In this document: one piece after another, positions 15,906-36,061 of the stretch
How positions within the stretch are numbered: position 1 is the stretch's first letter
How the letters are laid out: each line of letters starts with the position of its first letter
NCBI GenBank assembly: GCA_019056595.1
Contig: CP036163.1
Location: forward strand, 2,108,001 to 2,172,000
Length of the DNA stretch: 64,000 bases
Origin: Pectobacterium atrosepticum
GTDB taxonomy: Bacteria; Pseudomonadota; Gammaproteobacteria; Enterobacterales; Enterobacteriaceae
Reading direction: 5' to 3'
Program-made: the position numbers and the translations under genes
Notes under the pieces: generated by a model
Seen by the model: only the letters and a program-made list of their open reading frames with translations
What the model was told of the DNA's origin: nothing
Database searches by the model: none

Positions 15906-16116
15906 AATCAGCCCCTTTCGGGGCTGATGCAGACCATTGACAAACCTATTTACTGAATGAAAACGGGAGTAACGGAATAGAAGAGTAAAGCGCTTGCGCC
16001 AGGGATGGCGCAAGCCGAGCGTACAAGGATGTATTCACAGCGTCTTTACGATCTATCCGTTACTCTCGCTCTACGGACTTTGTCAGCAGCCTCAACCAGC
16101 CCCTTTCAGGGCTGAT
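15906..16116. repeat. Palindromic intergenic element, copy A, flanked by duplicated terminator hairpins
   Basis: A 165-bp core (15929-16093) lies between two near-identical 23-bp direct repeats (15906-15928 and 16094-16116), each containing the hairpin CAGCCCC-TTTC-GGGGCTG or its one-base variant. The core folds on itself: TTGACAAA pairs with TTTGTCA at the ends, GAGTAACGGA (15967-15976) with TCCGTTACTC (16056-16065), GTAAAG with CTTTAC, and a central perfect 9-bp stem CTTGCGCCA/TGGCGCAAG (15993-16014). A second copy lies at 35865-36061. Neither contains a protein-coding frame. It sits between the convergent oxidoreductase and serA genes. Confidence 0.85.
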
Positions 16117-16153
16117 TATTTATCGATCAATTGACTCACTGATCAATCAGACA

Positions 16154-17386
16154 TCAGAACAGCAGACGGGCACGAATAGTGCCGGGAATCGCCTTCATCA
16201 GTTGCAGTGCCGTTTGCGCACCGTCGGTTTCTACATCAATCACCACATAACCAATTTCAGGTGTCGTTTGCAGATACTGCGCAGCAATGTTAATGCCCTG
16301 CTCAGCAAAGATCTGGTTAATTTTGGTAATCATGCCAGGACGGTTTTCATGGATGTGCAGCAGGCGGCTAGCGCGTGCGCCATGAACGGGCAGCGACACT
16401 TCTGGGAAATTCACCGCAGACAGCGTAGAGCCGTTGTCTGAATATTTCGCCAGTTTCCCTGCAACTTCATCACCGATATTTTCCTGTGCTTCCTGCGTGG
16501 ATCCACCGATATGCGGCGTCAACAGCACGTTATCAAACTCGCACAGCGGCGACAGGAATGGCTCGCTGTTAGTTGCCGGCTCCTGTGGGAATACGTCAAT
16601 CGCTGCACCGGACAAATGCTTGCTGCTTAGCACTTCACACAGCGCGGGAATATCAACCACCGTACCGCGAGCGGCGTTAATCAGGATTGCACCTGGTTTC
16701 ATCAGTGCCAGTTCTTCCGCGCCCATCATATTATGCGTACTTTCATTTTCCGGCACATGCAGGCTCACCACGTCGCTCATATTCAGCAAATCGGACAGGT
16801 GGCGCACCTGCTGAGCATTGCCCAGCGGCAATTTGCTTTCAATATCATAGAAATAAACGTGCATACCCAGGCTTTCAGCCAAAATACCCAACTGCATACC
16901 GATATGGCCGTAGCCGATGATTCCGAGCTTTTTGCCGCGAGCTTCAAACGATCCCACAGCCAGTTTGTGCCAGATACCGCGGTGCGCTTTCGCGTTCGCT
17001 GCCGGGATACCACGCAGCATCAGCAGCATTTCGCCGATCACCATTTCTGCCACGGAGCGGGTATTGGAAAAAGGGGCATTAAACACTGGGATACCGCGTT
17101 TGGTCGCGGCCGACAGTTCAACCTGATTAGTCCCGATACAGAAACACCCTACCGCGATCAGTTTTTCCGCAGCAGCAAAAATCTCTTCTGTCAGATGGGT
17201 ACGCGAGCGGATCCCCACAAAATGCGCGTCGCGGATAGAAGCTTTCAATGCTTCAGGATCCAGCGCCCCTTTGTGGAACTCGATGTTGGTGTAACCCGCT
17301 GCACGCAGGTTATCCAGCGCGCTCTGGTGCACGCCTTCCACTAACAGAAACTTAATCTTGTCTTTTTCCAGTGATACCTTTGCCAT
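16154..17386 (-). CDS. serA: D-3-phosphoglycerate dehydrogenase
   Basis: First step of serine synthesis: NAD-dependent oxidation of 3-phosphoglycerate to 3-phosphohydroxypyruvate, feedback-inhibited by serine. 410 residues, the E. coli length. The Rossmann motif is GYGHIGMQLG (about 159-168). Active-site arginine is in AARGTVVD, glutamate in the QEPATNSEPF stretch and histidine in TPHIGGSTQEAQ. A C-terminal ACT domain (about 338-410) with HENRPGMITKINQIF binds serine. It lies downstream of rpiA on the same strand with a 294-bp gap, so it has its own promoter. In E. coli Lrp activates it; no Lrp site was assigned here. Confidence 0.97.
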   Translation of the reverse strand: MAKVSLEKDKIKFLLVEGVHQSALDNLRAAGYTNIEFHKGALDPEALKASIRDAHFVGIRSRTHLTEEIFAAAEKLIAVGCFCIGTNQVELSAATKRGIPVFNAPFSNTRSVAEMVIGEMLLMLRGIPAANAKAHRGIWHKLAVGSFEARGKKLGIIGYGHIGMQLGILAESLGMHVYFYDIESKLPLGNAQQVRHLSDLLNMSDVVSLHVPENESTHNMMGAEELALMKPGAILINAARGTVVDIPALCEVLSSKHLSGAAIDVFPQEPATNSEPFLSPLCEFDNVLLTPHIGGSTQEAQENIGDEVAGKLAKYSDNGSTLSAVNFPEVSLPVHGARASRLLHIHENRPGMITKINQIFAEQGINIAAQYLQTTPEIGYVVIDVETDGAQTALQLMKAIPGTIRARLLF

Positions 17387-17680
17387 TTCCCGACCTTATT
17401 TTCAGACTTCAAATGTGACAGAGTGCTAAATAGCCTCTGCCAACATAACAAAAATTACGCAGTCAGCAATACAAACGATTGCTTCGCCCAAATCGCGCCA
17501 CAGAGAAGCGCACCTGATTTATGGCAAAAAATATTGCCAAAGATGTGCATCGCCATATCGGCGATAAACAAAATAAGAAAATGTGATATTAAGTACCAAA
17601 AATGAGCCGTTAACTAAATAGATTTTTTTAGCTAAAAAATTTCTGACATGACCGTCCACCACGTCAGAACGATCATACAC

Positions 17681-18340
17681 TCATTTAGTGACGGTTTTTA
17701 CACCATCAGCCGTACCGACTAACGCCACATCCGCACCGCGGTTGGCAAACAGCCCAACGGTCACGACGCCAGCGATACCATTAATGTGGTTTTCTACCGC
17801 GACCGCATCCATGATATTCAGGTTGTGTACATCCAGAATGACGTTGCCATTATCCGTCACTACACCTTGACGATATTCCGGCTGACCACCCAGCTTCACC
17901 AGTTCACGCGCCACGTAAGACCGCGCCATTGGAATGACTTCAACTGGCAACGGGAATTTACCCAGTACATCAACCTGCTTTGACGCATCAACAATGCAGA
18001 TGAACTGGCGCGACAGTGCCGAAATGATTTTCTCACGGGTCAGAGCAGCACCACCGCCTTTGATCATCTGCATATGACCGTTGATTTCATCCGCGCCATC
18101 CACATAAACATCCAGCGAATCAACATCATTGGCATCAAAAACGGGAATGCCCAGACTTTTCAATTTTTCCGTTGAAGCATCCGAACTGGAAACCGCGCCT
18201 TTGATTTGATGTTTTATCGAACCCAGCGCATCAATAAAGTGTGCTGCCGTCGATCCGGTTCCTACTCCCACGATGGTGTCAGGGCGAACATAGTCAAGCG
18301 CTGCCCATCCCACTGCTTTTTTCAGTTCATCTTGCGTCAT
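17681..18340 (-). CDS. rpiA: Ribose-5-phosphate isomerase A
   Basis: Interconverts ribose-5-phosphate and ribulose-5-phosphate in the non-oxidative pentose phosphate pathway. 219 residues from ATG 18340, exactly the E. coli length. This start is preferred to an in-frame codon at 18424 because it gives [15 protein letters not shown]. Family motifs seen: [15 protein letters not shown] (phosphate loop), [16 protein letters not shown] with catalytic acid, and [12 protein letters not shown]. Divergent from argP with 239 bp between starts. It works with tktA, also in this window, to feed nucleotide synthesis. Confidence 0.97.
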
Positions 18341-18579
18341 AATCTGCTTTTGGCCTGTAGAATCGATATACGAAAACGTGTGCGTATTATAGAACATGCG
18401 CGTTGGGGAAAGCGTGCAATTCACCTCACCACCGATGCATTATTTCACGCGTGCAATGTCACACGTACCGTGCTGAATCGTGATTTCACACGATAGCCAA
18501 AATAAGATTTCTGCATGGCAAACCAGCAAAATGTGGCATAGTGAAAAAAAACAGACTCATTCAGGGGATTTTGACTTTC

Positions 18580-19473
18580 ATGAAACGCCCGGACTATCGA
18601 ACGCTTCAGGCTCTGGATGCCGTCATCCGCGAACGTGGTTTTGAACGCGCTGCCCAAAAATTGTGTATTACCCAATCTGCCGTTTCGCAGCGTATTAAAC
18701 AGTTGGAAAATCTGTTCGGCCAACCGCTGTTGGTCAGAACCATCCCGCCCCGCCCAACGGAACAAGGGCAGAAGCTCTTGGCTCTGCTTCATCAGGTAGA
18801 ATTACTGGAAGAAGAGTGGCTGGGTAATGAAACCAACAGCGATATTCCACTGCTGCTGTCGTTGGCGGTGAACGCCGACAGTCTGGCGACCTGGCTGTTG
18901 CCAGCGTTACAGTCGGTGTTGGTGGATTCTCCCATTCGTCTTAATTTGCAGGTCGAGGATGAAACGCGCACCCAGGAAAGATTGCGTCGGGGTGAAGTGG
19001 TCGGTGCGGTGAGTATTCAGTCTCAGCCGCTACCAAGTTGTCTGGTGGATAAACTGGGTGCGCTGGATTATCTGTTCGTTGCGTCGCCAGCGTTCGCCGC
19101 CCGCTATTTCCCGAATGGTGTGACGCGCTCTGCGCTGCTGCGTGCCCCTGCGGTTGCCTTCGACCATCTGGACGATATGCATCAGGCTTTTTTACAGCAG
19201 AACTTTGATTTGTCGCCGGGCAGTGTTCCCTGCCATATTGTGAATTCATCGGAAGCCTTCGTACAGCTGGCACGACAGGGCACGACCTGCTGCATGATCC
19301 CGCATCTGCAAATCGAGAGAGAGCTTGCCAACAACGAATTAGTCGATCTGACGCCGGGGCTGTTTCAGCGCCGGATGCTCTACTGGCATCGCTTCGCGCC
19401 GGAAAGTCGGATGATGAGAAAAGTGACGGATGCCCTGCTATCACACGGCCATCAGGTACTGAGACAGTCATAA
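18580..19473 (+). CDS. argP: LysR-type regulator ArgP (IciA)
   Basis: 297-residue LysR regulator that in E. coli activates the arginine exporter argO when arginine is present and represses or fails to activate it with lysine. It was first described as an inhibitor of oriC opening. The start [16 protein letters not shown] at 18580 matches the family; an in-frame GTG at 18541 would add 13 unrelated residues. The helix-turn-helix is about residues 18-37 ([20 protein letters not shown]). The effector domain follows. Its target argO lies 1 kb downstream on the opposite strand, separated by yggE. Confidence 0.96.
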
Positions 19474-19508
19474 CGTACTGAGAAAGTGATATTGATGTCG
19501 TTATAAAA

Positions 19509-19540
19509 ACCAACAGGCCTGTCTAAACAGGCCTGTTGGT
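19509..19540. terminator. Perfect hairpin between argP and yggE (bidirectional terminator)
   Basis: A 14-bp perfect stem ACCAACAGGCCTGT/ACAGGCCTGTTGGT with a CTAA loop lies between the convergent argP and yggE. A run of As on the left (TATAAAA) provides Us for reverse transcripts. No T-run follows on the forward side. Confidence 0.7.
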
Positions 19541-19564
19541 ACGATCAACTCGCTAGCACATTTC

Positions 19565-20290
19565 TTATTGCGTGCGCTGCAACTCAAATACGACATCCAC
19601 CTGATCGTCAAAGTGAATGGTTTGTTGTTCATACGTTTGCGCTGCTTCGCTTTGTGCTGCCGCATCTGCTGTTTTAAACATCCGTGCCATTGGCATCGGC
19701 TGATAGTTGGCAACATGGTAGCGAACGCTGTAGATCGGTCCCAGCTTGGCGTTGAAGCCCTGTGCTAGCGATGCAGCCTGACTCGTCGCCTGTTCGATGG
19801 CTTTCTTACGCGCTTCATCACGATACGTTTCCGGGTTAGCAACGCCCAGTTCTACCGTGCGAATTTCATTCAGCCCTGATTTCAGCGCACCATCCAGCAG
19901 TTCGTTCAGTTTATCTAACTGACGCAGCGTCACTTCCACCTGACGCACCGCACGATAGCCTTTCAGCACTGAACCACCCGTTTTCAGATAATCATATTCT
20001 GGCTGCGTGCGTAAATTTGCAGCATTAATATCTTTTTTCTCAATGCCGTTTTTACCTAGAAAATCAAAATATTGTGCAACGCGAGCATCGACCTGCTTTT
20101 TCGCGTCCGCCGCATCCTTTGATGACACACTCACTTCAATTGCCAGACGCGCAATATCGGGTGTCGCGTCTACGCTGGATGTCCCCGACGTCACGATATG
20201 CGGGCCATCCGGCAGTTCCGCAGCCTGTGCGGCAATCGACACGCCACCAAACCCTACTGCGGCGGCCAGCGCCAGTGCATTGAGCTTCAT
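19565..20290 (-). CDS. yggE: SIMPL-domain periplasmic protein, oxidative stress defence (YggE)
   Basis: Exported protein of 241 residues with one SIMPL (DUF541) domain, linked in E. coli to lower reactive oxygen levels. Its biochemical role is unknown. A signal peptide (MKLNALALAAAVGFGGVSIAAQA) ends near residue 23. The domain begins PDGPHIVTSGTSSVDATPDIARL and includes the KKDINAANLRTQPEYDY and GYRAVRQVEVTLR stretches. The start at 20290 is used because it matches the family. Three in-frame starts lie just upstream, up to 20305. Same strand as argO but with a 190-bp gap upstream. Confidence 0.93.
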   Translation of the reverse strand: MKLNALALAAAVGFGGVSIAAQAAELPDGPHIVTSGTSSVDATPDIARLAIEVSVSSKDAADAKKQVDARVAQYFDFLGKNGIEKKDINAANLRTQPEYDYLKTGGSVLKGYRAVRQVEVTLRQLDKLNELLDGALKSGLNEIRTVELGVANPETYRDEARKKAIEQATSQAASLAQGFNAKLGPIYSVRYHVANYQPMPMARMFKTADAAAQSEAAQTYEQQTIHFDDQVDVVFELQRTQ

Positions 20291-20495
20291 CATACCTCGC
20301 TTCACACTCTCTCCTTACTTATGTTTCGTCACGCATGTGGCTCAGCGGATTTATCCTGCTTCGGCACAGCATGTTCCAGAATGAAAGATACAAGAAGGGT
20401 ATCTTTTACCAGACAACATAACGTATTACTGACTCCACACAATATAGGTGAATTTCTGAAACGCAGCGTAAAGCGGTGTTATTTATTTCTAACCA

Positions 20496-21110
20496 CTATT
20501 GCCAGCCGTGACGCGCCAGCTGCAAAGCGATTCCCCACATCACCACACCGACAAAAAAGTTGATAACTCGCTGTACCCGAGGTGTATTCAGCCACGGTGC
20601 CAGCCAAGCTGCCAATAACGCCAGCGCAAAGAACCAAGTGAAGGAAGCGGTCATCGTCCCCAGCGCAAACCAGCGTCGGGCGTCATCCGCAAACTGGCTC
20701 CCCAAACTCCCCAAGACCACGAAAGTATCCAGATAAACATGGGGGTTAAGCCAGGTCACTGCCAACATAGTGGCAATAATCCGCCAGCGGCTCTGCTTCA
20801 TCACGTCAGCACTGGTTAGCGTAATATTCTTGCTGAAGGCCGTTTTCATTGCTCCCCAGCCGAACCAGAGCAAAAACGCAACGCCGCCCCAAGTCACCGC
20901 TCCTAACAATAACGAAGACTGGTTGAGCAACGCGCTACCGCCAAAAATACCCGCGCTAATCAACACCATGTCACTCACGGCACATAGCAGCGCCACCATC
21001 AGGTGATACTGTCGGCGAATTCCCTGATTCATTACGAATGCATTCTGTGGACCCAGTGGCAGAATCATCGCTGCCCCTAACAGAACGCCCTGTAAATAGA
21101 CCGCCCACAT
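20496..21110 (-). CDS. argO: Arginine exporter ArgO (LysE family)
   Basis: Inner-membrane L-arginine exporter of 204 residues, LysE superfamily, with about six hydrophobic helices. The N-terminal [23 protein letters not shown] is diagnostic, and [21 protein letters not shown] carries the second conserved loop. It is regulated by ArgP with arginine as coactivator in E. coli, and argP is encoded 1 kb away. A 206-bp gap separates it from mscS on the same strand. About seven residues shorter than E. coli at the C-terminus. Confidence 0.95.
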
Positions 21111-21316
21111 ACTTCTCTCCTACGCTATTTATTGTTGTCGCGAGGAGTTTATGAAAGCCGATTAAATAAGTGAAATTGAATATTCTAACGCTACATTAGG
21201 TACGCTAATGTGCTGAGGATGGAGGGGAGGAAATGTTAGTTGAGAGGACGATTTCTGACGATGCACCATGCCAATATCGGGACATGGTGCATACCTAGAG
21301 GCTTTTGTCAGCGAGT

Positions 21317-22177
21317 TTATTCTGGCTGTTTCGCTGCGGATTGTATGCTGTGCAGGTGCACATCCATCTGCGGATAAGGAATGCCAATACGGTGCTCATC
21401 CAGCACGCGTTTAAAGCTTTCTAACAGATCCCAGTACACCGCCTGCGCATTGCCGTTGGTCGTCCATACCCACACCACAAAATTCAGCGATGACGCCGCC
21501 ATTTCATTCAGGCGAATAGTGACGCCTTTGTCATGCTGGATACGCTCATCCGCCGCAACAATATCGCCCAATAGCTTTTTCACTACGTCAATATCGGCAT
21601 CATACGCCACGCCAACAATAATTTCGGTACGGCGATCCGGCTCACGCGAGCTGTTGATGATGTTGCCAGCGATGATCTTGCCATTTGGAACCACGATAAT
21701 TTTGCCATCAGACGTGCGCAGCGTTGTCGAGAAGATCTGCACCTGCGTGACCGTACCGGACACGCCGCCCAAATCCACCCATTCCCCAGTACGGAAAGGC
21801 CGGAAAATCACCAATAAAACGCCTGCGGCAAAGTTGGCTAACGACCCCTGTAATGCCAGACCAATAGCCAAGCCCGCAGCACCCAGCACGGCAATCACCG
21901 ATGCCGTCTGTACACCAACCCGACTCAATACTGCAATCAGTGTGAACGCGATAATGCCATAGCGAACCAGCGCAGACAGGAAATCTGCCACGGTTGAATC
22001 GATAGAACGGTTAATCATCAGTTTATTAATGGTGCCGGAGACTATCCGTGCGATCACCAGACCAACGATGAGGATCACTAATGCTGCAACAATATTCACG
22101 GCATACTGCAAAAACAAGTCCTGATGAGTCACCAACCAGTTCCCTGCCTGATCCAAACCCGTATTAAGTTCTTCCAT
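21317..22177 (-). CDS. mscS: Small-conductance mechanosensitive channel MscS
   Basis: Inner-membrane channel, homoheptamer, that opens on hypo-osmotic shock to release solutes. 286 residues, as in E. coli. Three membrane helices (about 28-55, 65-88 and 96-128). The pore-lining TM3 is [21 protein letters not shown] with its alternating small residues, followed by the beta domain start [18 protein letters not shown]. The C-terminal cage domain ends near HLHSIQ. It is 122 bp upstream of the fbaA terminator on the same strand. No oddity. Confidence 0.96.
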
Positions 22178-22245
22178 TTAAAAGCTCCTGTTTTTTAATC
22201 ACTGGGAAAGCATAACGTCCACCACTGAAACCGCAACATCGCCCC

Positions 22246-22273
22246 AAAAATTAAGGCTCCCGCAGGAGCCTTA
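22246..22273 (-). terminator. fbaA terminator
   Basis: Reverse-strand stem TAAGGCTCC/GGAGCCTTA (9 bp, loop TGCG) followed by ATTTTTGG, 26 bases after the fbaA stop. Confidence 0.88.
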
Positions 22274-22299
22274 GCATCAAACTATGTCTGTCGTCTTAC

Positions 22300-23376
22300 T
22301 CAGAGCACATCAACAGCATTGAGCTCTTTGAAGGCTTGTTCCAGACGAGCAACCATGCTTGTCTGGGCGGAACGCAGCCACACACGTGGATCATAGTATT
22401 TCTTGTTCGGCTGATCGTCGCCTTTCGGGTTGCCCAATTGAGCTTGCAGATAGGCTTCGTTTTCTTTGTAGTATTTCAGGATACCTTCCCACGTTGCCCA
22501 CTGGGTGTCGGTATCAATGTTCATTTTCACTACGCCGTAGCTGACCGAATCTTTGATTTCCTGAGCGCTGGAACCAGAACCACCGTGGAACACGAAATCC
22601 AGGCTGTTGTGTGGCAGGTTATGTTTCTTGGAAACATATTCCTGAGAATCACGCAGGATGGTCGGGGTCAGCTTCACGTTACCTGGCTTGTATACGCCAT
22701 GCACGTTACCGAAAGAGGCGGCGATAGTGAAACGTGGGCTAATCGCGTTCAGTTTGGTGTACGCGTAATCAACATCTTCTGGCTGGGTGTACAGAGCAGA
22801 AGCGTCCATGTGGCTGTTATCCACGCCGTCTTCTTCACCACCAGTGCAACCCAGTTCGATTTCCAGGGTCATATCGATTTTGGCCATACGCGCCAAATAT
22901 TTAGAACAAATTTCGATGTTCTCTTCCAGAGACTCTTCAGACAGGTCAATCATGTGAGAAGAGAACAGCGGTTTGCCGGTAGCAGCAAAGTGTTTTTCAC
23001 CCGCGTCCAGCAGGCCATCGATCCACGGCAGCAGTTTTTTCGCACAATGGTCAGTGTGAAGAATTACCGGAATGCCGTAATGCTCAGCCATTTGGTGCAC
23101 ATGATGAGCGCCAGAAATCGCACCCAAAATTGCCGCCTGCTGGCCTTCTGCTTTCAGACCTTTACCCGCGGTGAATGCTGCGCCGCCGTTAGAGAACTGA
23201 ACGATTACCGGCGCGCGCACTTTGGCTGCAGCTTCCAGCACAGCATTGATTGAGTCGGTACCGACACAGTTCACTGCTGGCAAAGCGAATTTGTTTTCTT
23301 TTGCTACTGCGAAAACTTTCTGAACGTCATCACCAGTGATGACACCGGGTTTTACGAAATCAAAAATTTTAGACAT
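22300..23376 (-). CDS. fbaA: Class II fructose-bisphosphate aldolase
   Basis: Zinc-dependent aldolase of glycolysis and gluconeogenesis, splitting fructose-1,6-bisphosphate into the two triose phosphates. 358 residues. Zinc ligands are in VILHTDHCAKKLLPW (His and Asp near 108-110) and LDFVFHGGSGSS, and a further histidine is in FGNVHGVYKPG. It is the last gene of the epd-pgk-fbaA cluster. The 137-bp gap to pgk contains a stem (23431-23472) that could be a processing site or a separate leader. Terminator downstream. G+C by hand over 22801-22980 is 86/180. Confidence 0.97.
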   Translation of the reverse strand: MSKIFDFVKPGVITGDDVQKVFAVAKENKFALPAVNCVGTDSINAVLEAAAKVRAPVIVQFSNGGAAFTAGKGLKAEGQQAAILGAISGAHHVHQMAEHYGIPVILHTDHCAKKLLPWIDGLLDAGEKHFAATGKPLFSSHMIDLSEESLEENIEICSKYLARMAKIDMTLEIELGCTGGEEDGVDNSHMDASALYTQPEDVDYAYTKLNAISPRFTIAASFGNVHGVYKPGNVKLTPTILRDSQEYVSKKHNLPHNSLDFVFHGGSGSSAQEIKDSVSYGVVKMNIDTDTQWATWEGILKYYKENEAYLQAQLGNPKGDDQPNKKYYDPRVWLRSAQTSMVARLEQAFKELNAVDVL

Positions 23377-23430
23377 GTTACGTGTCCCGTTTCGTTGGCC
23401 GTGGAGGGGTTAAAGAAATCGATGTTAAAT

Positions 23431-23479
23431 CGACAGGTTGTCCCAACACGATATTGTGATAACTACCTGTCGAGACAAC
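23431..23479 (-). other. Stem-loop in the pgk-fbaA intergenic region
   Basis: CGACAGGT (23431-23438) can pair with ACCTGTCG (23465-23472), and the neighbouring GTTGTC with GACAAC, giving alternative stems around a 26-base loop. It lies in the leader of fbaA. In E. coli this intergenic region is an mRNA processing and promoter site, so a role in differential expression is plausible but inferred. Confidence 0.45.
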
Positions 23480-23513
23480 CACAGGAAAGGGAAAAAGCAC
23501 CCCTTACCTTAAA

Positions 23514-24677
23514 TTACTGCTTGGCGCGTTCTTCCAGCATAACGACTGCTGGCAGTTTTTTCCCTTCAACGAACTCCAGGAATGCGCCACCACCAGTAGA
23601 AATGTAGGAGATCTTGTCTGCAATACCAAACAGATCGATCGCAGCTAGCGTATCGCCGCCACCTGCGATAGAGAATGCGTCGCTATCCGCGATAGCACGA
23701 GCGATAATCTCGGTTCCTTTACGGAAATTCGGGAATTCGAAGACGCCAACTGGGCCATTCCACAGGATGGTTTTGGCATTCTTCAGAATTTCAGCCAAAC
23801 GCTCAGCGGAAACATCTCCCAGATCAAGAATCTGCTCTTCGTCTTTAATTTCCGTAACAGACTTCAGCGTTGCAGCAGCAGTTTCAGAGAACTCTGACGC
23901 TACACGCACATCGCTCGGAACAGGAATATCACACGTTTCCAGCAGCTTTTTCGCTTCAGAAATCAGGTCTGCTTCATACAGGGACTTACCTACATTGTGG
24001 CCTTGTGCGGCAACAAAGGTATTGGCGATACCGCCACCCACGATCAGCTGATCGGCGATTTTAGACAGTGAATCCAGTACGGTCAGTTTGGTAGAAACTT
24101 TAGAACCGCCCACAATGGCGACCATCGGACGGGCTGGTTTGCTCAGTGCTTTACCCAGCGCTTCCAGCTCACCAAACAGCAGCGGGCCCGCACAAGCGAT
24201 AGTGGCAAATTTACCTACGCCGTGGGTTGAAGCCTGTGCACGGTGCGCCGTACCGAAGGCGTCCATCACGAACACATCGCACAGTGCCGCGTATTTCTTG
24301 GAGAGCACTTCGTCGTCTTTCTTCTCGCCTTTGTTAAAGCGGACGTTTTCCAGTACAACCAGCTCGCCTTCGGCGACATCAACACCATCTAGGTAGTCTT
24401 TCGCCAGACGTACGGGAGAAGAGAGTTTCTCTTTCAGGTAGTCAACAACAGGCAGCAGAGAAAAATCTTCGTTGTACTCGCCTTCGGTCGGACGTCCCAA
24501 GTGGGAAGTGACCATAACGCGAGCGCCTTGTTTCAGAGCGATTTCGATGGTCGGCAGAGAGGCACGGATGCGCGCATCAGACGTCACTTTCCCTTCTTTT
24601 ACTGGTACGTTCAGATCCGCACGAATAAGAACACGTTTACCAGCCAGATCCAGATCGGTCATCTTAATTACAGACAT
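23514..24677 (-). CDS. pgk: Phosphoglycerate kinase
   Basis: Glycolytic kinase transferring phosphate from 1,3-bisphosphoglycerate to ADP. 387 residues, the E. coli length. The N-terminal substrate domain has [12 protein letters not shown] and the basic patch [12 protein letters not shown]. The nucleotide domain has [16 protein letters not shown] and the C-terminal [16 protein letters not shown]. Preceded by epd with a 72-bp gap and followed by fbaA: the standard enterobacterial glycolytic operon. Expected control by Cra from the site upstream of epd plus internal promoters. Confidence 0.97.
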
Positions 24678-26054: not shown

Positions 26055-26079
26055 TCTCATATCAGGATTAGAGGCGTGA

Positions 26080-28074
26080 TTACTTAAGCAGCGCCTGCGC
26101 TTTTTCGACCACGTTATCGACAGTGAAGCCAAACGCTTCGAACAGCAGCTCAGCCGGCGCAGATTCACCGAAGCTTGTCATACCGACAATCGCGCCGTTC
26201 AGGCCGACGTACTTGAACCAGTAGTCTGCGATACCCGCTTCAATGGCCACGCGCGCCGATACCGCTTTCGGCAGCACAGCTTCACGATAGGCCGCGTCCT
26301 GCTTGTCGAACGCATCCGTTGACGGCATGGACACCACGCGCACCTTGCGGCCAGCGGCTGTCAGCTTGTCATACGCACCGACAGCCAGTTCGACTTCAGA
26401 ACCGGTGGCAATCAGGATGAGTTCCGGCTGGCCGTCGCTGTCTTTCAGCACGTACCCGCCTTTCACCACGTTCGCCAGCTGTTCAGCGGTACGCGTCTGC
26501 TGCGCCAGATTCTGACGCGACAGGATAAGTGACGTCGGGCCGTCCTGACGCTCAATCGCGTATTTCCACGCCACCGCGGTTTCCACCTGGTCTGCCGGAC
26601 GCCAGTTGCTCATGTTCGGCGTTACGCGCAGGCTGGCCAGCTGTTCAACCGGCTGGTGCGTCGGGCCGTCTTCGCCCAGACCGATGGAGTCGTGGGTGTA
26701 GACGTAGATGCTGCGGATTTTCATCAGCGCCGCCATACGCACGGCGTTACGCGCGTATTCCACAAACATCAGGAAAGTCGCGGTGTACGGCACAAAGCCA
26801 CCGTGCAGCGCAATCCCGTTGGCAATGGCGGTCATACCGAACTCGCGCACACCGTAGTGGATATAGTTACCCGCGTGGTCTTTATCCAGCGATACCGAGC
26901 CGGACCAGATGGTCAGGTTGCTCGGGGCCAGGTCGGCAGAGCCGCCCAGGAATTCCGGCAGCAGTTTGCCGTAGGCTTCCAGCGCGTTCTGTGACGCTTT
27001 ACGGCTGGCGATTTTCGCCGGATTGGCCTGCAAATCCTCGATAAATTTCTGTGCATCTGCCTGCCAGTGGGTCGGCAGTTCACCGCCGGTACGGCGTGTG
27101 AATTCGGCAGCCAGTTCAGGGTACGCGCTGGCGTAGGCAGCAAATGCCTCATCCCAGGCCGCTTCCTTACGCTGACCGGCCGGTTTGGCGTCCCAGGCGG
27201 CATAAATATCCGCCGGAATATCAAACGGCGCGTGCGTCCAGCCCAGCTGTTCGCGGGAAGCCGCGACTTCCGCCTCGCCCAGCGGTGCACCGTGCGAGTC
27301 GTGCGTGCCGGCCTTGTTCGGTGAACCGAAGCCAATCACGGTTTTGCACATCAGCAGCGACGGTTTATCGGTCACCAACTGAGCTTCGCCGATAGCGCGT
27401 TTGATGGCGTCCGCATCGTGACCGTCCACGCCGCGCACCACGTGCCAGCCGTAGGCTTCAAAGCGGGCGGCGGTATCGTCGGTAAACCAGCCTTCTACGT
27501 GACCGTCGATGGAGATGCCGTTGTCATCATAAAACGCGGTCAGTTTGCCGAGCTTCATGGTGCCTGCCAGCGAGCAGACTTCGTGAGAAATCCCTTCCAT
27601 CATGCAGCCGTCACCGAGGAAGGTGTAGGTGTGATGGTTAACAATGTCGTGGCCCGGGCGGTTGAACTGCGCCGCCAGCGTGCGCTCGGCAATCGCCATA
27701 CCGACCGCATTGGCAACACCCTGACCCAGCGGGCCGGTGGTGGTTTCAACGCCGGCGGTGTAGCCGTATTCAGGGTGACCCGGAGTTTTGGAATGCATCT
27801 GACGGAAGTTTTTCAGTTCTTCAATCGGCAGGTCGTAGCCGGAGAGATGCAGCAGGCTGTAAATCAGCATGGACGCATGACCGTTGGACAGCACGAAGCG
27901 GTCGCGGTTGGCCCAGTTGGGGTTGGCCGGATTATGGTTAAGATAATCACGCCACAGCACTTCGGCGATATCGGCCATGCCCATCGGTGCGCCCGGGTGA
28001 CCGGATTTGGCTTTCTGCACCCCATCCATGCTCAGCGCGCGGATAGCATTGGCAAGTTCTTTACGAGAGGACAT
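26080..28074 (-). CDS. tktA: Transketolase
   Basis: Thiamine diphosphate enzyme of the non-oxidative pentose phosphate pathway, moving two-carbon units between sugar phosphates. 664 residues from ATG 28074, the start that gives [20 protein letters not shown]. Longer in-frame extension to 28197 is not family-like. Visible: [15 protein letters not shown], the ThDP motif [13 protein letters not shown] with the later DDNG, and [22 protein letters not shown]+C is high in the middle: 119/180 by hand over 27121-27300, against 86/180 for part of fbaA, while the ends look average. Divergent from loiP; the 410-bp gap shows no gene. Confidence 0.96.
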
Positions 28075-28484
28075 GCTTGACTCCAGATCGGATTGAACGA
28101 ATGCCATTCCTGTATAATCCATATTATTCAACAAGTTAAACAGGAATGACAAAATAAATATGATTACAAATGTACATGAAAAATGTAGCGAATGCACATG
28201 GAACCGTGAGCAAAAAACAGGGATTTATCGGCTAACAAGTCAATGGCGGTTCTTTTATCAATTGTGCAGTTGATTGCAGCGCCATACGCCATGTTTTCCA
28301 GTGGGTTCACCTTTATCTACCGTACTTTTTTGGAACGCACGAAAACAAAACTCATTGCCTGTTGGCTATTGAAAAGAGTACAAATCAGATCTTCAGATCT
28401 ATTTCTCAATGCTGTTTTCGGGTAGTTTATAGCCGCTTTTCTTTCGTATTAAAAAACAAACACAATCGTAGGGAGATGATTTTT
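28075..28484. other. tktA-loiP divergent promoter region
   Basis: 410 bases with no supportable gene. It must contain the promoters of both flanking genes. A ribosome site GTAGGGAGATG precedes loiP. I could not place operators with confidence. Confidence 0.4.
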
Positions 28485-29237
28485 ATGGCAATTCGTTCTT
28501 CTGTACTGGCCCTGTGTGTAGCAACCTTGCTGACCGGCTGCCAGAATTTAAACACCAATACCTTAATGCAATCCGGCGCACAGGCTTTCCAAGCTGCAAC
28601 ACTCAGCGATGCTCAGGTTAAAGCGCTCAGCGACCAGTCCTGTGAACAAATGGATAAAGAAGCAAAGATTGCCCCTGCCGATAGCAAATACACGCAGCGC
28701 CTGAATAAAATTGCGGATGCGCTGGGCCACGATATCAACGGCACGCCAGCAAACTACAAAGTCTATCTAGAGAAGGATGTTAACGCCTGGGCAATGGCTA
28801 ACGGTTGCATCCGAGTATATAGCGGTCTGATGGACATGATGAACGACAATGAAGTGGAAGGCGTACTCGGCCACGAAATGGGCCACGTTGCGCTGGGACA
28901 CACGCGTAAAGCGATGCAGGTTGCCTATGCTGCGACTGCCGCACGGACCGCAATCGCCTCCGCTGGCGGCGTAGCAGCGTCATTATCGCAATCACAGTTA
29001 GCCGATCTGGGGGAAAAACTGGTTAATTCTCAATTCTCTCAATCCCAGGAAAGTCAGGCTGATGACTATTCCTTTGATTTGCTGAAGAAACGCGGCATCA
29101 ACCGGGAAGGTCTGGCGAGCAGCTTTGAGAAACTCGCCAAATTGGATGCTAGCCATGAGAGTAGCATGTTTGATTCCCACCCTTCCTCTGAAGGGCGCGC
29201 CAAACACATCCGTGAACGCATTACTGCCGAGAAATAA
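28485..29237 (+). CDS. loiP: M48-family metalloprotease lipoprotein LoiP (YggG)
   Basis: Outer-membrane lipoprotein metalloprotease of 250 residues, induced at low osmolarity in E. coli and working with the chaperone-like protease BepA. The signal sequence ends in the lipobox LLTGC (Cys19). The zinc site is GHEMGHVALGHTRKAM (HExxH near residue 130) with a downstream ESQADDYSFDLL third ligand. The start at ATG 28485 follows a good ribosome site; the upstream in-frame region from 28362 lacks family similarity. In E. coli speB lies between loiP and speA; it is missing here. Confidence 0.94.
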   Translation: MAIRSSVLALCVATLLTGCQNLNTNTLMQSGAQAFQAATLSDAQVKALSDQSCEQMDKEAKIAPADSKYTQRLNKIADALGHDINGTPANYKVYLEKDVNAWAMANGCIRVYSGLMDMMNDNEVEGVLGHEMGHVALGHTRKAMQVAYAATAARTAIASAGGVAASLSQSQLADLGEKLVNSQFSQSQESQADDYSFDLLKKRGINREGLASSFEKLAKLDASHESSMFDSHPSSEGRAKHIRERITAEK

Positions 29238-29842
29238 TCTCACACGCTGATTATTCGCAAAAAATGCGCACTGGGGCAATTGAAAAAATCTCAATTGCCC
29301 GCTAGTCATCCGACCACTATCATCCCCGTCATATTCGCTGTAAGCTGTTAAAAAACAGCGACCTTCAATCACCGCCATCATCACTATGATAGGATTTAAG
29401 AATTAATAGATATAAATAGATAGCTATTTTCAATCATATTTACCCTCCGTTCTCTTTTTAAGAAACGATACTCAGCAGATTTCCAGATGTAGGAACGCAA
29501 CTGAGAGAATGAATGCGGCGGTATACGGAAAAACAGGCAACCACGATTAACGCAGACATACACGTCGTAATAACAGTAAGGATGGATAACCCCATGTATT
29601 TAAAGATAGAAACAAACCAGTAAATCAAGCATACTATGTTAAACCAATAAAATTTCTTCCAGTTTAATCATATAGATATATGATAAAACCTGTTGCCGCT
29701 CCCGCAGGTTTCTCTAGAGGCTCCATCTTTTAGCGATTTAAATGCATTTCAGGATCGCAATTTCTTAATAACTGGATAACATCAGCAACGATTATTGGTT
29801 TGTGGCCACTTTCAGACAATAAACTCATATGTGTTAAAAATC
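29238..29842. other. AT-rich intergenic region downstream of loiP
   Basis: About 600 bases with no supportable gene. A hairpin GGGCAATTGA/TCAATTGCCC at 29274-29300 probably ends loiP, although no T-run follows. A second small stem (AACCTG/CAGGTT, 29689-29711) lies before the LuxR-type gene. I looked for remnants of speB here and saw none. Confidence 0.5.
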
Positions 29843-30460
29843 ATGGATGTGAGAATTTTCAGTAAATGCAATTTTACCACGGTAGGATTACGGGAAATCC
29901 TATCGAGTATTCCTATACTCTCGATAAAGCCCGTCAACAGGTTTACGCTGCAACAAGGAAAGAAAAAATGTATTTTCATCATTGACGGCAGTAGCGAGGG
30001 CTTTGAGGAATACTATGAGTCGATAAGAACTCACTTTTATAATATGGCGTCATCGTTCGTTATCATCAATAATTCCCCCAATCACCCCCCCGTGTGCATT
30101 GACGAAAAAACGATTCTTATTTCAAAGTCAGCAGCCATCGATTCGTTTTATAAATTACTCGATTTCGTCCACCTCCACGACCGCCGTTTATTCAGTCCCG
30201 TCAGGCTATCAAAATCTGAATATGCCGTATTCCAGTATTGGTGTGCGGGCTACACAGCGGAAGCGATTGCCGATCTCATCGGGTTAAATAAGAAATCAGT
30301 ACTGAACAGTAAATCAAGATTACTGAATAAATATGGCGTTCAGGATAAAAACTCTTTACTGCTTATTGCTAAAATTATCTTCAAAGACAACGTCATTGAA
30401 GAATTTGATTCCCTTCCAAAACCAGCAGCCGATATCAATATGATTAATTCGCTTATCTGA
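29843..30460 (+). CDS. LuxR-type helix-turn-helix regulator, function unknown
   Basis: About 205 residues from ATG 29843; an in-frame TTG start at 29795 would add 16. The C-terminal 65 residues are a GerE/LuxR DNA-binding domain: LSKSEYAVFQYWCAGYTAEA, then IGLNKKSVLNSKSRLLNKYG. The N-terminal part (MDVRIFSKCNFTTVGLREIL) resembles the degenerate receiver of RcsA/BglJ/FimZ-like regulators, with no complete phosphorylation site visible. Over 30301-30420 G+C is 37/120, far below its neighbours. It lies in the place of speB, between loiP and speA, and ends at a terminator shared with the facing speA. No good ribosome site. Target genes unknown. Confidence 0.75.
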   Translation: MDVRIFSKCNFTTVGLREILSSIPILSIKPVNRFTLQQGKKKCIFIIDGSSEGFEEYYESIRTHFYNMASSFVIINNSPNHPPVCIDEKTILISKSAAIDSFYKLLDFVHLHDRRLFSPVRLSKSEYAVFQYWCAGYTAEAIADLIGLNKKSVLNSKSRLLNKYGVQDKNSLLLIAKIIFKDNVIEEFDSLPKPAADINMINSLI

Positions 30461-30473
30461 TCGATAGACGAAA

Positions 30474-30501
30474 AAAAGGGATGCACACTCGCATCCCTTT
30501 T
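30474..30501. terminator. Bidirectional terminator between the LuxR-type gene and speA
   Basis: Stem AAAAGGGATGC/GCATCCCTTTT (11 bp) with a 6-base loop; A-run on one side and T-run on the other serve both convergent genes. Confidence 0.9.
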
Positions 30502-30518
30502 CACTTAGTCAATCACAC

Positions 30519-32498
30519 TTACTCATCTTCCAAATAAGTATAACCGTACAGCCCGGTTTCAAACTCTTCCATGAACTGCGCCTGAAGTTCAGCATCCAGG
30601 TCGGTTTCTTTAACCTGATCGCGGAAACGAGTCATCAGTACTTTAGGGTCAAGTTGCACATATTCCAGCATGTCAGCAACCGTATTCCCTTCGTCAGACT
30701 CTTCAATCTCAACGGTACCGTCCTGGAAGACAAACACGTCAACGGTCGACGTATCGCCAAACAGGTTATGCATGTTACCCAGAATTTCCTGATAGGCACC
30801 GACCATAAAGAAGCCCAGCAGCGGCGGGTTTTCTGGATCGTAAGGCGGCATCGGCATCGTCGTCGCGATTCCGTCACCATCGACATAATGATCGATCGTG
30901 CCATCAGAATCACAGGTGATGTCCAGCAGTACAGCACGACGCTCAGGCGGTTTATCCAGCCCTTCCAGCGGCATTACTGGGAACAGCTGATCGATACCCC
31001 ATGCATCCGGCATAGATTGGAACAGAGAGAAGTTGACATACAGCTTGTCAGCCATCCGCTCTTGTAATTCATCAATCACTGGCCGATGCGCACGATTGCT
31101 CGGGTCCAACTGTTCCTGAATCAACTGACAGATGCTCAGATAAAGCTGCTCTGCCTTCGCACGCTGTGTCAGATCCAACATGCCGTGCGTGTACTGGGTA
31201 TGCACATCGTGCAAGTCCATCTGGCTGTCATGCAACCACTCACGCAGCGAACGGCGTTTCCCTGGTTGCTTGATTTCCTTCCAGGTTGACCACAGGCTTT
31301 CCAACGCACGCGGGGCATCCTCTTCCGGCTCAGTAGGTTCGCTGAACTCGTTACGCTCAACCCCGATAATATTGGAAACTAACACGGTATGGTGCGCGGT
31401 GACCGCTCGGCCGGATTCAGTAATCACCGTTGGATGCGGTAACCCGTGTTCATTACAGGCATCGCCGATACCCCAAATCACGTTATTGGCGTATTCGTTC
31501 AGGCCATAGTTGACTGAACAGTCGGACTGAGAACGAGTTCCTTCATAATCCACGCCCAAACCGCCACCAACGTCAAAGCACTGGATATTCACACCCAGTT
31601 TATGCAGCTCGACATAGAAGCGCGCGGATTCACGCACGCCCGTCGCGATATCACGGATATTTGCCAACTGTGATCCCAGATGGAAATGCAGCAGTTGCAG
31701 GCTATCCAGCTTTCCAGCTTCACGTAGCATCTCAACCAGTTGCAGAACCTGAATCGCCGCCAAGCCAAACTTGGATTTTTCGCCGCCGCTGGATTGCCAC
31801 TTGCCCGATCCCTGAGAGGCCAGACGCGCACGGACGCCGAGGCGCGGCACCACATTCAAGCGCTCAGCTTCTTCCAGCACCAGCCGGATTTCGGACATCT
31901 TCTCGATGACCAAATAAACCTTGTGGCCCAGCTTTTCGCCAATCAGCGCCAGACGGATGTATTCACGGTCTTTGTAGCCGTTACACACAATCACAGTGCG
32001 GGTCATGCCGGCATGACCCAGTACCGCCATCAGCTCAGCTTTTGAACCGGCTTCCAGACCCAGCGGCTCACCGGAATTGGCCAGTGACTCAATGACGCGA
32101 CGATGCTGGTTAACCTTGATCGGATACACCAGAAAGTAGCCGCCTTCATAGCCAAACGATTCGCGAGCCTGTTTAAACGCAGCGTTAATAGAACGCAGGC
32201 GATGCTGAAGAATTTGCGGAAAGCAGAACAGCGCAGGCAGGCGCTGATGGTTCTCTTTCTGCATATCTTTGACCAGTCTGGCCAGATCGACGCGCGCTTC
32301 TGGGACGTCGGGATCCGGGCACACGCTAATGTGGCCAAGTTCATTGACGTCATAGTAATTATTGCCCCACCAGGCAATATTGTAGGTACGAAGCATTTCG
32401 CTGGCATTACGGTCATTCATGGCAACCTCCTGCATAGAGCGCAAATTTTCATGTTTACCCGTCGCTGACGAGCCGTGATGAATCATGTCGTCAGACAT
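30519..32498 (-). CDS. speA: Biosynthetic arginine decarboxylase
   Basis: PLP- and magnesium-dependent decarboxylase converting arginine to agmatine, the first step of the agmatine route to putrescine. 659 residues, one more than E. coli. The PLP lysine lies in [19 protein letters not shown]. Also seen are [22 protein letters not shown], and the C-terminal [22 protein letters not shown] with the substrate aspartates. It has a long N-terminal leader ([20 protein letters not shown]) as in E. coli. No agmatinase gene follows, so agmatine must be handled elsewhere or exported. A 700-bp upstream region contains a candidate leader ORF. Confidence 0.97.
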
Positions 32499-32755
32499 AA
32501 CGAACCTCTTCTTTTTCTAGACTGCTGATCACATCAGTACCTGAATAAACAGCCCACATGAGCATACCTGCAACATGCGGCATCGACAGTGAAAAAACCG
32601 GCGTAGTGAAGTATGCCGTCACTTTATTACTCTTATTAGTGTAAAACACGTTGTCGGGCTCCGTGTTACGGGTCGATAAAACTCGTTGTGAAAATCACCG
32701 GGCGAACGTGACCAGAAAGATGTAAACGCTTCTGGCAGAAAGAATAACAGGCAGA

Positions 32756-32893
32756 TTAACCAGCCCTGGAGTCCTGTGTCGAATTTAACGACAGACTACG
32801 TCTGGAAACGGAAAAGAAGGGTTGAGTCGCTGACGCGATGGCGTCAAAAGGGACGTATTGCGAAGGCAATACACTCAGTAAACAACGGATCAT
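32756..32893 (-). CDS. Candidate leader ORF upstream of speA (45 codons)
   Basis: Reverse-strand ATG at 32893 opens a 45-codon frame (MIRCLLSVLPSQYVPFDAI at its start) ending at TAA 32756. It is preceded by GGAGGTGA (32902-32909), a perfect 8-base match to the anti-Shine-Dalgarno, eight bases from the ATG. The frame overlaps two strong hairpins: GTATTGC/GCAATAC (32855-32872) and TGACGC/GCGTCA (32831-32846). It ends 257 bp before speA. E. coli has the small gene yqgB in a similar place, but no similarity to it is seen. Real translation is not proven. Confidence 0.35.
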   Translation of the reverse strand: MIRCLLSVLPSQYVPFDAIASATQPFFSVSRRSLSLNSTQDSRAG

Positions 32894-33143
32894 TAATCCA
32901 ATCACCTCCACGTGCGCCGCAGGCTGTGCGGTTAGCTATCAATAAGACATTCACATGTCGCAGCATATACCCTATACGCTACAGTTCGCCGTTTATACCT
33001 ACATGCTACTGGAAAAGCAAAATGAAAATTACTGCCAGTCATCTCTTGTAAAAGAAAAAACGGCCGATGATAAAAGGACGATGGCGAGCTAATGCGAAAA
33101 ACTACTGGCACTGAGACCAAAAGGTGACCTAGAATAGCCATCC

Positions 33144-33159
33144 AGATGTTAATCCGTCT
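33144..33159 (+). promoter_or_regulatory. MetJ operator (two met boxes) upstream of metK
   Basis: Two adjacent 8-mers, AGATGTTA and ATCCGTCT, match the met box AGACGTCT at 5 and 6 positions. A TATACT -10-like hexamer follows at once. MetJ with S-adenosylmethionine represses metK in enterobacteria. The site is about 56 bp before the start codon. Confidence 0.6.
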
Positions 33160-33214
33160 ATACTGATTAACTGATACACTGCTTAACGGCTTTGATTTGA
33201 AGGTAAAGAAACTC

Positions 33215-34366
33215 ATGGCTAAACACCTTTTTACGTCCGAGTCAGTCTCTGAAGGACACCCTGATAAAATTGCTGACCAGATTTCTGATGCGGTTCTCGA
33301 CGCCATTCTGGAGCAAGACCCAAAAGCGCGTGTCGCTTGTGAGACTTATGTAAAGACCGGGATGGTGTTAGTCGGTGGTGAAATTACTACCAGCGCCTGG
33401 GTCGACATTGAAGAAATTACCCGTCGTACCGTACGTGATATCGGTTATGTCAATTCTGAAATGGGCTTTGATGCCAACTCCTGTGCCGTACTGAGCGCAA
33501 TTGGCAAGCAGTCTCCTGACATCAATCAGGGCGTTGACCGCCGCGATCCGTTAGAACAAGGCGCAGGCGACCAGGGTCTGATGTTCGGTTACGCGACCAA
33601 CGAAACCGACGTACTGATGCCAGCCCCTGTGACTTATGCACACCGTCTGGTTCATCGCCAGTCAGAAGTCCGCAAGAGCGGTTCTCTGCCGTGGCTGCGT
33701 CCTGATGCGAAAAGCCAGGTTACGTTCCTGTACGACGATGGCAAGATTGCCGGTATTGATGCTGTGGTGCTGTCTACCCAGCATTCAGAAGACGTTAGCC
33801 AGAAAGATCTGCATGAAGCGGTGATGGAAGAGATCATCAAACCGGTTCTGCCTGCAGAGTGGCTGTCTGCCAGCACCAAATATTTCATCAACCCAACTGG
33901 ACGCTTTGTTATCGGCGGCCCAATGGGTGACTGCGGTCTGACGGGTCGTAAAATCATCGTTGATACTTACGGCGGCGCGGCGCGGCACGGCGGCGGTGCA
34001 TTCTCCGGTAAAGATCCGTCTAAAGTAGACCGTTCTGCTGCCTATGCCGCACGCTATGTTGCCAAAAATATCGTTGCTGCTGGCCTGGCCGATCGCTGCG
34101 AGATTCAGGTGTCCTACGCTATCGGCGTGGCGGAACCAACATCCATCATGATCGAAACCTTCGGCACAGAGAAAGTGTCCACCGAGCAACTGACGCTGCT
34201 GGTGCGCGAATTCTTCGATTTGCGTCCTTATGGCTTAATCCAGATGCTGGATCTGCTGCATCCGATTTATCAGGAAACGGCAGCTTATGGTCACTTTGGC
34301 CGTGAGCATTTCCCGTGGGAAAAAACAGACAAAGCCGCGCAGCTGCGTGAAGCTGCTGGTCTGTAA
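33215..34366 (+). CDS. metK: S-adenosylmethionine synthetase
   Basis: Makes S-adenosylmethionine from methionine and ATP; a cytoplasmic tetramer, essential. 383 residues from ATG 33215 ([22 protein letters not shown] would be the N-terminus). An in-frame codon at 33197 would add six unrelated residues. Motifs: [16 protein letters not shown] (methionine/ATP site) and [19 protein letters not shown] (phosphate loop). About one residue shorter than E. coli at the C-terminus. Divergent from speA; S-adenosylmethionine also feeds spermidine synthesis. Met boxes upstream, terminator downstream. Confidence 0.98.
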
Positions 34367-34418
34367 TATTATTCCGAGATAAATACCAGCGCGGTAAATA
34401 TCAGCATGACAAACACCA

Positions 34419-34445
34419 AACGGCGAATGAAAATTCGCCGTTCTT
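34419..34445 (+). terminator. metK terminator
   Basis: Stem AACGGCGAAT/ATTCGCCGTT (10 bp) with a GAAA loop followed by CTTC, 52 bases after metK. The T-run is weak. Confidence 0.75.
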
Positions 34446-34518
34446 CATTCTGGCCTCTCCACATATCCCTCCGCTTCGCCTATTGCGTCTCCCTGCCACT
34501 CAATTTATGCTCACAGAA

Positions 34519-35031
34519 ATGAACACTCCCCGAATTCCCATTGCCAGCCATCAGGCTGTGATGCGCTGTCTGCGTGATAAGTTGCAGCAGGCCAACCTCA
34601 CCTTGCAGACGGACTACACCGAACCCGCGGTAAGTTACCAGCAGCGCGGCGCTACGGCAGGCACGGCGTGGCTACAACACTGGGAAATTCGGCTGAATCC
34701 TGTTTTGTTACAGGAAAACCAGCAAACCTTTATCGATGAAGTCGTTCCTCATGAGCTGGCCCATCTGCTGGTCTACGCGCGTTTTGGTCGTGTAGCTCCC
34801 CACGGCAAAGAGTGGCGTTGGATGATGGAAAACGTCCTGCACGTTCCGGCGAAGCGCACGCATCGGTTTGCAGTGCAATCCGTGCAGGGGAAGACCTTCA
34901 CCTACCTCTGCGATTGCCAACGGCATGAGCTCACGATCCGTCGACACAATCGGGTGCTGCGCGGCGAAACAGAATATCGCTGCCGTCGTTGCGGGAAAAC
35001 CTTACGTCATGATGTAAAAAGTTCTATTTAA
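34519..35031 (+). CDS. sprT: SprT family zinc protein
   Basis: 170-residue SprT-like protein with a zincin-like N-terminal domain ([25 protein letters not shown], an HExxH motif at about 70) and a C-terminal four-cysteine zinc ribbon (CDCQ and CRRCG). Related to Spartan proteases that act on DNA-protein crosslinks; the bacterial role is not well defined. Start ATG 34519 gives [21 protein letters not shown], like E. coli; an in-frame codon at 34483 adds 12 unrelated residues. Followed by endA at 96 bp, the E. coli order. Confidence 0.92.
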
Positions 35032-35127
35032 AAGGAAATTTCCAGTTTTAAAAACTGCTTTTGCATTTGCCTGCCGACGAGACATCCGGTAGTCTGCCAA
35101 CTTTACTGCCTGTGGATTATTTGGAAT

Positions 35128-35826
35128 ATGGTACGCAAAATTCTCGCTATCGCCGCCGTTGGCGCGGGTCTATTTTCAGCTGCCGCGCTGAGCCAAAACA
35201 TCAATAATTTTTCGCAGGCAAAAGCCGCCGCTGTCGAAATTAATCGGGACGCACCGGGTTCGTTCTACTGCGGCTGTAAGATTACGTGGCAGGGCAAGAA
35301 AGGCACACCCGATCTTAAGTCCTGCGGCTATCAGGTCAGAAAGAATGAACAACGTGCCAGCCGTATTGAGTGGGAGCATGTTGTGCCCGCTTGGCAGTTC
35401 GGCCACCAACGCCAATGCTGGCAGGATGGCGGCAGAAAGAACTGTAACAGCGACCCCGTCTACCGAGAGATAGAAACGGATTTGCATAACCTGCAACCCG
35501 CTATCGGCGAGGTCAACGGCGATCGCGGCAATGCCATGTATGGGCAGTGGAACGGCGGTGCATCCCAATATGGTCAATGCGAGATGAAGGTCGACTTCAA
35601 AAACAATCTGGCAGAACCGCCAGCTCGCGCCCGCGGCCAGATCGCTCGTACCTATTTCTACATGCGCGACCGCTATCAGTTACGCCTTTCCAGCCAGCAG
35701 ACTCAGCTGTTCGAAGCCTGGGATAAGCAATACCCCGTCACGCAGTGGGAATGTACCCGCAATCAACGCATCGCCGCAAAGCAGGGAAACCCAAATCCCT
35801 ACGTTCAACAGGCTTGCCAGCGCTAG
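35128..35826 (+). CDS. endA: DNA-specific endonuclease I
   Basis: Periplasmic endonuclease that makes double-strand cuts in DNA. 232 residues with a signal peptide of about 22 residues ([13 protein letters not shown]). The metal and catalytic histidine are in [16 protein letters not shown] (His near 90), with [18 protein letters not shown] downstream as the beta-beta-alpha-metal fold. Several cysteines suggest disulfides. Its terminator region hosts copy B of the palindromic element. Confidence 0.95.
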
Positions 35827-35864
35827 TTCGTCTACCTACTATAGCGAATCAGTTTCCAGCGTAA

Positions 35865-36061
35865 CCACCGTCAAATGACGGTGGTTCAGACTGTTGACAA
35901 ATCTATTTATGGAACGAGAACGGGGGTAATGGGGTTGAAGAGTAAAGCGTTTGCGCCATGGATGGCGCAATCCGAGCTTACAGGGACGTACTTGCAGCGT
36001 CTTTACGATCTACCCATTATCACCGCTCAGCGTACTCGGCCACTATTAAATGACGGTGGTT
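35865..36061. repeat. Palindromic intergenic element, copy B, flanked by duplicated terminator hairpin
   Basis: A ~153-bp core (35887-36039), roughly 80-85% identical by eye to copy A over its first 125 bases, lies between two 22-bp direct repeats at 35865-35886 and 36040-36061 (19 of 22 identical, with 14 identical in a row: AAATGACGGTGGTT). The left one is the endA terminator hairpin CCACCGTCAAATGACGGTGG. Arms GGGTAATGGG (35924-35933) and CCCATTATCA (36013-36022) pair like those in copy A but with different bases. Central stem TTGCGCCA/TGGCGCAA. No coding frame of note. Confidence 0.85.

Follow-up and report, generated by a model that had tools for sequence, protein, structure and literature searches.

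The window, a stretch of 64,000 nt from Pectobacterium atrosepticum (contig CP036163.1 of assembly GCA_019056595.1, positions 2,108,001 to 2,172,000 of the forward strand), carries two copies of a short repeated element, A and B, each lying between two copies of a transcription terminator hairpin (Table 1). A occupies the space between two convergent genes, one for a zinc-binding alcohol dehydrogenase family protein and the other, which we take to be serA, for a phosphoglycerate dehydrogenase; B stands between rsmE and a deoxyribonuclease I gene, presumably endA. The direct repeats flanking A are 24 nt long and 92% identical, those flanking B 22 nt and 86%, in agreement with the original prediction, made from the sequence alone, of two copies each inside a duplicated terminator hairpin. 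That the hairpin at the A site differs in sequence from that at the B site was confirmed at both sites, and the identity of the two cores, put at about 80-85% by eye, was measured as 82.7% across 133 bp. The predicted start and end of B were nearly correct, with B found to lack 13 bp of its right end; the right end of A had to be moved to about 16094.

Table 1 Features of elements A and B (positions in the window)
Feature	Position	Strand	Remarks
YPAL/RU-2 copy A	15929..16094	+	166 bp; end-to-end alignment with printed RU-2 (PMC2759123), BLAST E 3e-20
Left hairpin copy of A	15905..15928	.	stem-loop 15909-15926; direct repeat 92%; corresponds to the one hairpin present where the element is absent
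Right hairpin copy of A	16093..16116	.	stem-loop 16097-16114; overlaps the end of the element by 2 nt
Left inverted end of A	15929..15944	+	1 mismatch to TNAGNYYRYTGACAAA
Right inverted end of A	16079..16094	-	exact pattern match; G000:C2:2124079-2124094
Rfam RF02770 Ysr224 match in A	15987..16093	-	104.4 bits (cut-off 70)
YPAL/RU-2 copy B	35886..36039	+	right end 13 bp shorter than in relatives
Left hairpin copy of B	35865..35886	.	direct repeat; compared with empty sites
Right hairpin copy of B	36040..36061	.	5' arm decayed; 86% to left copy
Left inverted end of B	35886..35901	+	exact pattern match; G000:C2:2143886-2143901
Rfam RF02770 Ysr224 match in B	35944..36050	-	72.9 bits (cut-off 70)

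Judged by their sequence, A and B are copies of YPAL/RU-2 (Rfam Ysr224), an enterobacterial repeat of about 167 bp that is already known, and the guess that it had been described under another name was right. RU-2 as printed in PMC2759123 matched A with E 3e-20 (positions 53-168) and could be aligned with it from end to end, and it matched B with E 2e-16 (positions 54-142) and aligned except at the right end. Both copies exceeded the Rfam RF02770 cut-off over 107 nt on the minus strand. The same identity is indicated by the examined parts of PMC2229807, PMC2759123, PMC2267715 and PMC2847712. YPAL/RU-2 has been reported from Yersinia and Erwinia carotovora; its duplications measure 3-26 bp and span or adjoin a dyad symmetry (PMC2229807), a size range that covers the 24 nt of A and the 22 nt of B. 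A and B resemble the published element in sequence, length, intergenic position and the variable length of the dyad duplication (Delihas 2007, 2008; examined parts of PMC2759123 and PMC2229807); unlike it, B has lost its right end. ERIC, REP and CGTC repeats are likewise palindromic and intergenic, but the sequence and ends of YPAL match RU-2 instead; enterobacterial CGTC REPs were not described in the examined text of PMC3733652. Ysr224 is catalogued as a Yersinia small RNA and not as part of a transposon, and the RNA fold of B was unremarkable (z -1.40; 17 of 200 shuffles equally good). A stabilising effect of YPAL/RU-2 on upstream transcripts is hinted at in PMC2229807. Terminators are said to have been named as its targets by De Gregorio in 2006.

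The predicted entry into a terminator, with about 22 bp duplicated, was supported by the sister genomes, in which empty sites carried one hairpin and filled sites two. At the A site the element was absent and a single hairpin present in 23 of 24 relatives. The remaining relative (G006, locus L048) had no hairpin but a long, oppositely oriented YPAL, which looks like hairpin replacement, with later deletion as an alternative; as this site holds a YPAL without a terminator, duplication is not the sole outcome of insertion. At the B site, 19 of 25 genomes were empty with one hairpin and six, our own included, were filled. Compared with the same insertion in two relatives (L069, L077), the right inverted repeat of B is 13 bp short and its two ends therefore no longer match (1 of 16 letters), whereas 10 of 16 letters are identical between the ends of A. 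At three of the filled B sites (L069, L071, L077) the apical loop of this insertion additionally contains a module of about 77 bp.

YPAL was found repeatedly, more often than chance would account for, as had been expected of a mobile element. In our genome 28 BLAST pieces of A were joined by position into 23 places, five of them long copies. Across the insertions analysed, a different hairpin was present at nearly every one; the outcome held to speak against mobility, only two copies with shared flanks, was not observed. All 25 genomes of the genus contained YPAL (6-46 BLAST pieces each). Within the family, where scoring used strict filters and was limited to 12 candidates per genome, it was present in 26 of 295 genomes and 16 of 154 genera, with 10 genomes above the Rfam cut-off and none of 14 controls positive. 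Five of 5426 E. coli genomes had YPAL, as did 15 plasmid records (73-74% identity), and the phage records searched gave 0 matches. The YPAL at L355, about 74% identical to A, belongs to conjugative plasmids found in Escherichia, Klebsiella, Citrobacter and Shigella; the one plasmid examined was IncN.

A multi-hairpin module of 76-78 bp was seen in the apical loop of long YPALs, both in our genome (L017, L020, L026, L027, L028) and elsewhere (L069, L071, L077, L168-L191, L193-L198); it recalls REP-type repeats. Matches to the module occurred in all 25 genomes of the genus and in 18 of 119 from the family, and long copies containing it were not described in the examined YPAL/RU-2 texts (PMC2759123, PMC2229807). 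Related modules stood outside YPAL in other genera, in tandem at L200 and L212 and, at L204 and L209, near a sequence that we take to be the end of a 5S rRNA. At L011 the left end of a YPAL, with flank, is repeated behind the element, which might be the remnant of a tandem copy removed by recombination.

The duplications were analyzed in 120 element hits from the fetched loci. After 27 had been dropped, one at an edge and 26 with unclear ends (B among them, represented by the same insertion in L077), 93 hits with clear ends represented 51 independent insertions. In 33 of these the duplication exceeded the 99% level of a flank-swap null; its centre lay within 2 nt of the hairpin axis in 24 of the 33 (null 11%), and 28 of the 33 hairpins were above the 95% level of shuffled sequence. 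The two hairpin copies differed at 7 of 93 loop positions and 9 of 380 stem positions, two of the latter keeping a pair (23 hairpins, p 0.02).

The end pattern TNAGNYYRYTGACAAA gave 66 matches in six genomes with none for the backward control, and 94 matches in 15 further genomes against 9 for the control. Because of these 9 control matches, and because 46 of the 94 came from one genome (G302), many matches in YPAL-poor genomes may be chance. Scans gave at least 118 stretches in genome contigs and 37 in viral contigs. An end match at G000:1052318 was unpaired and is probably due to chance. Solo ends in G302 (L337, L338, L347, L351) had no partner element that could be found, and no open reading frame of L337 or L347 was recognisable as a transposase. 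Further inverted end pairs were seen at L357, L469 and L472.

The same ends also bound mini-elements with four unrelated interiors. Little beyond the two ends was kept in those of 52-65 bp (L249, L252, L271, L331), G138 contained elements of 121 and 179 bp (L266-L268), genus g94 a family of near-identical 142-bp copies (L315-L354; genomes G302 and G229), and Firmicutes assemblies, among the stretches listed, elements of 193 and 152 bp. Except for the two G138 types, the interiors matched neither YPAL nor each other across families, and Rfam gave nothing above cut-off inside the 142-bp family or the long-YPAL module. In the 142-bp family, 31 of 33 insertions had a duplicated terminator (mean 21.4 bp), its centre within 2 nt of the hairpin axis in 30 of the 31; of 12 Firmicutes flanks judged by eye, 11 were duplicated terminators. 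The hairpin copies of the 142-bp family differed at 12 of 112 loop positions (10.7%) and 7 of 500 stem positions (1.4%), about an 8-fold difference (29 hairpins, Fisher p 1e-5), and six of the seven stem differences kept a pair. The elements themselves showed 3.7% pairwise difference (19 copies). Thus, divergence is lower in the stems and higher in the loops than in the element itself, a pattern such as selection for both terminators would leave; a loop-altering process may be an alternative source of this divergence.

Two elements of 1694 and 1523 bp with TNAGNYYRYTGACAAA-type ends encode IS1182-family transposases (NF033551, E 1e-116 and 3e-142) and sit between perfect hairpin copies. We then considered 21 IS1182 loci, of which 19 were picked by us from two hit lists of plasmid records (1226 and 317 entries) and a single E. 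coli record, and two were from three viral loci, the partial L518 being left out. Both ends fitted TNAGNYYRYTGACAAA with at most 2 mismatches in 19 of the 21, the reversed pattern in none. The whole hairpin was duplicated in 13 of the 21 rows, corresponding to 12 of 19 distinct sites. The duplications at these 12 sites, together with a thirteenth at L383, were 18-32 bp long and equalled the paired span in 12 of the 13; length and hairpin, measured on the right copy alone, were correlated (r 0.92, n=13, permutation p 1e-4). Plasmid copies from Salmonella, Providencia, Sphingobium and Aminobacter (L511, L519, L520, L522, L523) had an end with the 16-mer TCAGACTGCTGACAAA, which also occurs in the left end of Y. 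pestis RU-2; the ends in Aminobacter and Sphingobium read TCAGACTGCTGACAAACC. IS1182 members such as ISBspe1 and the plasmid copies share with YPAL the TCAG...TGACAAA ends on both sides, the terminator target and the duplication of the whole hairpin, whereas YPAL has no transposase gene and its ends are less alike (10 of 16 letters for A).

Hairpin targeting by IS1182 members is already published. On entering hairpins, several of which are terminators, IS1272 removes part of the stem and makes no duplication (examined part of PMC4923244), and stem-loop replacement has been proposed in PMC5678879, where the legend of Fig. 13 also draws a stem-loop-duplicating branch. IS1272 and TnSha1, in the parts of both papers examined, resemble A and B in targeting hairpins and terminators without sequence specificity, but are described as deleting or replacing the stem-loop with no duplication, whereas A and B duplicate it and both keep two hairpins. 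IS1182-linked mini-elements are also known from ISMac2 in Methanosarcina acetivorans (160-169 bp); in contrast to A and B, their direct repeats are listed as 4 or 0 and the host is an archaeon (PMC3852290, examined in part). The searched text of a 2024 review of prokaryotic miniature inverted-repeat transposable elements (MITEs; PMC10969869) had no IS1182 match. No transposase was named for YPAL in the examined texts of PMC2759123 and PMC2229807, and no text linking YPAL to IS1182 was found in the open-licence literature searched, which omits most subscription papers.

Two marks of an IS1182-linked MITE, shared ends and a shared target and product, were found. We consider it highly probable that A and B are non-autonomous MITEs with IS1182-type ends that were moved in trans into terminator hairpins by an IS1182-type DDE transposase. 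The imperfect inverted ends of YPAL would be recognised by such an enzyme, which would excise the element and attach both of its 3' ends at the foot of a terminator hairpin that probably has the form of an extruded cruciform. Gap repair would then duplicate the whole stem-loop, the length of the duplication depending on the hairpin instead of a fixed stagger. The order of strand transfer, like the cruciform, is our inference, and both hairpins presumably still terminate. With terminators left on both flanks, an insertion should do the adjacent genes little harm. With somewhat less confidence, we regard it as probable that YPAL and four other mini-element families in Enterobacterales and Firmicutes ride one IS1182-type machinery that senses DNA secondary structure and duplicates the exact stem-loop, without a fixed length, leaving both neighbours a terminator.

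Several observations weigh against movement by an IS1182-type transposase. No duplication above the null was detected in 18 of the 51 YPAL insertions, and duplication length was not significantly related to the span of the GC stem (Pearson 0.27, n=22, permutation p 0.10); in the 142-bp family the relation to stem span was weak (Spearman 0.41, p 0.02; Pearson 0.28, p 0.12; n=31). A different hairpin stood on each side of the mini-elements L321 and L415, the latter being the twelfth Firmicutes case, and of four of the 21 IS1182 loci (L513, L517, L527, L528); the other loci beyond these four and the 13 duplications had neither pattern. At these six places the unlike hairpins give the impression that the two ends were joined to separate hairpins, or else that recombination took place between copies. 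YPAL is tabulated as lacking terminal inverted repeats in the examined part of PMC2229807, against the 10 of 16 letters found for A. An inverted TNAGNYYRYTGACAAA pair at insertion-sequence length was seen by eye in none of the 21 genomes with exact matches, three of them of the genus, where IS1182 genes were not searched, and our own genome, likewise not searched for IS1182 genes, had no such pair. Since no autonomous partner was found in the genus, with IS1182 genes unsearched there, it is by inference that we speak of mobilisation in trans; no transposition was observed.

The lack of a partner would also fit YPAL being a MITE of a different DDE transposase, its likeness to IS1182 in ends and target reflecting convergence or old common descent: no YPAL-ended partner was met in the three genus genomes searched with the full end pattern. 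However, the sixteen-letter end identity and the same unusual hairpin duplication occur in IS1182 copies of the same order, and rve-type transposases at 12 loci in three genomes had no end pair with at most 2 mismatches, which makes this explanation improbable. The rve-domain transposases were rejected as movers, three loci with 3 mismatches each being read as chance, and the IS1202 family, the first candidate mover because of its long duplications, was discarded on its 5'-TGT ends (examined part of PMC10132070) versus TCAG/TGAG in YPAL.

The flanking hairpins might instead be two pre-existing terminators, or a tandem duplication around an old repeat, and the imperfect copies at A (92%) and B (86%) would suit this. 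The single hairpin at 23 empty A sites among 24 relatives and at 19 of 19 empty B sites already refutes it at A and B; nearly every insertion has a different hairpin and the copies beside IS1182 elements are perfect, so that we give it hardly any weight. Group IIC introns enter terminators by target-primed reverse transcription, and an RNA route of this type for YPAL has in its favour the same kind of target and some short duplications in which the position of the left junction is nearly constant, close to the stem's 3' foot, and that of the right junction varies. Against it stand the inverted ends shared with a DDE insertion sequence, the complete duplication of the hairpin and the derivatives of 52-65 bp that retain little more than two ends; we judge it extremely unlikely.

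Overall, the element is known and the mechanism foreseen in the original prediction is right, and IS1182 as the likely mover of YPAL is the new, testable part. The coincidence of the catalogued small RNA family Ysr224 with a transposon calls for caution. For YPAL, which has no named transposase in the texts examined, IS1182 as the likely mover makes the question of its mobility directly testable. The 88 natural hairpin-duplicating insertions (33 YPAL, 31 of the 142-bp family, 13 IS1182 and 11 of the Firmicutes type) provide material on how a DDE transposase reads a hairpin, and mobilisation by IS1182 would explain how YPAL comes to lie at gene ends with little harm.

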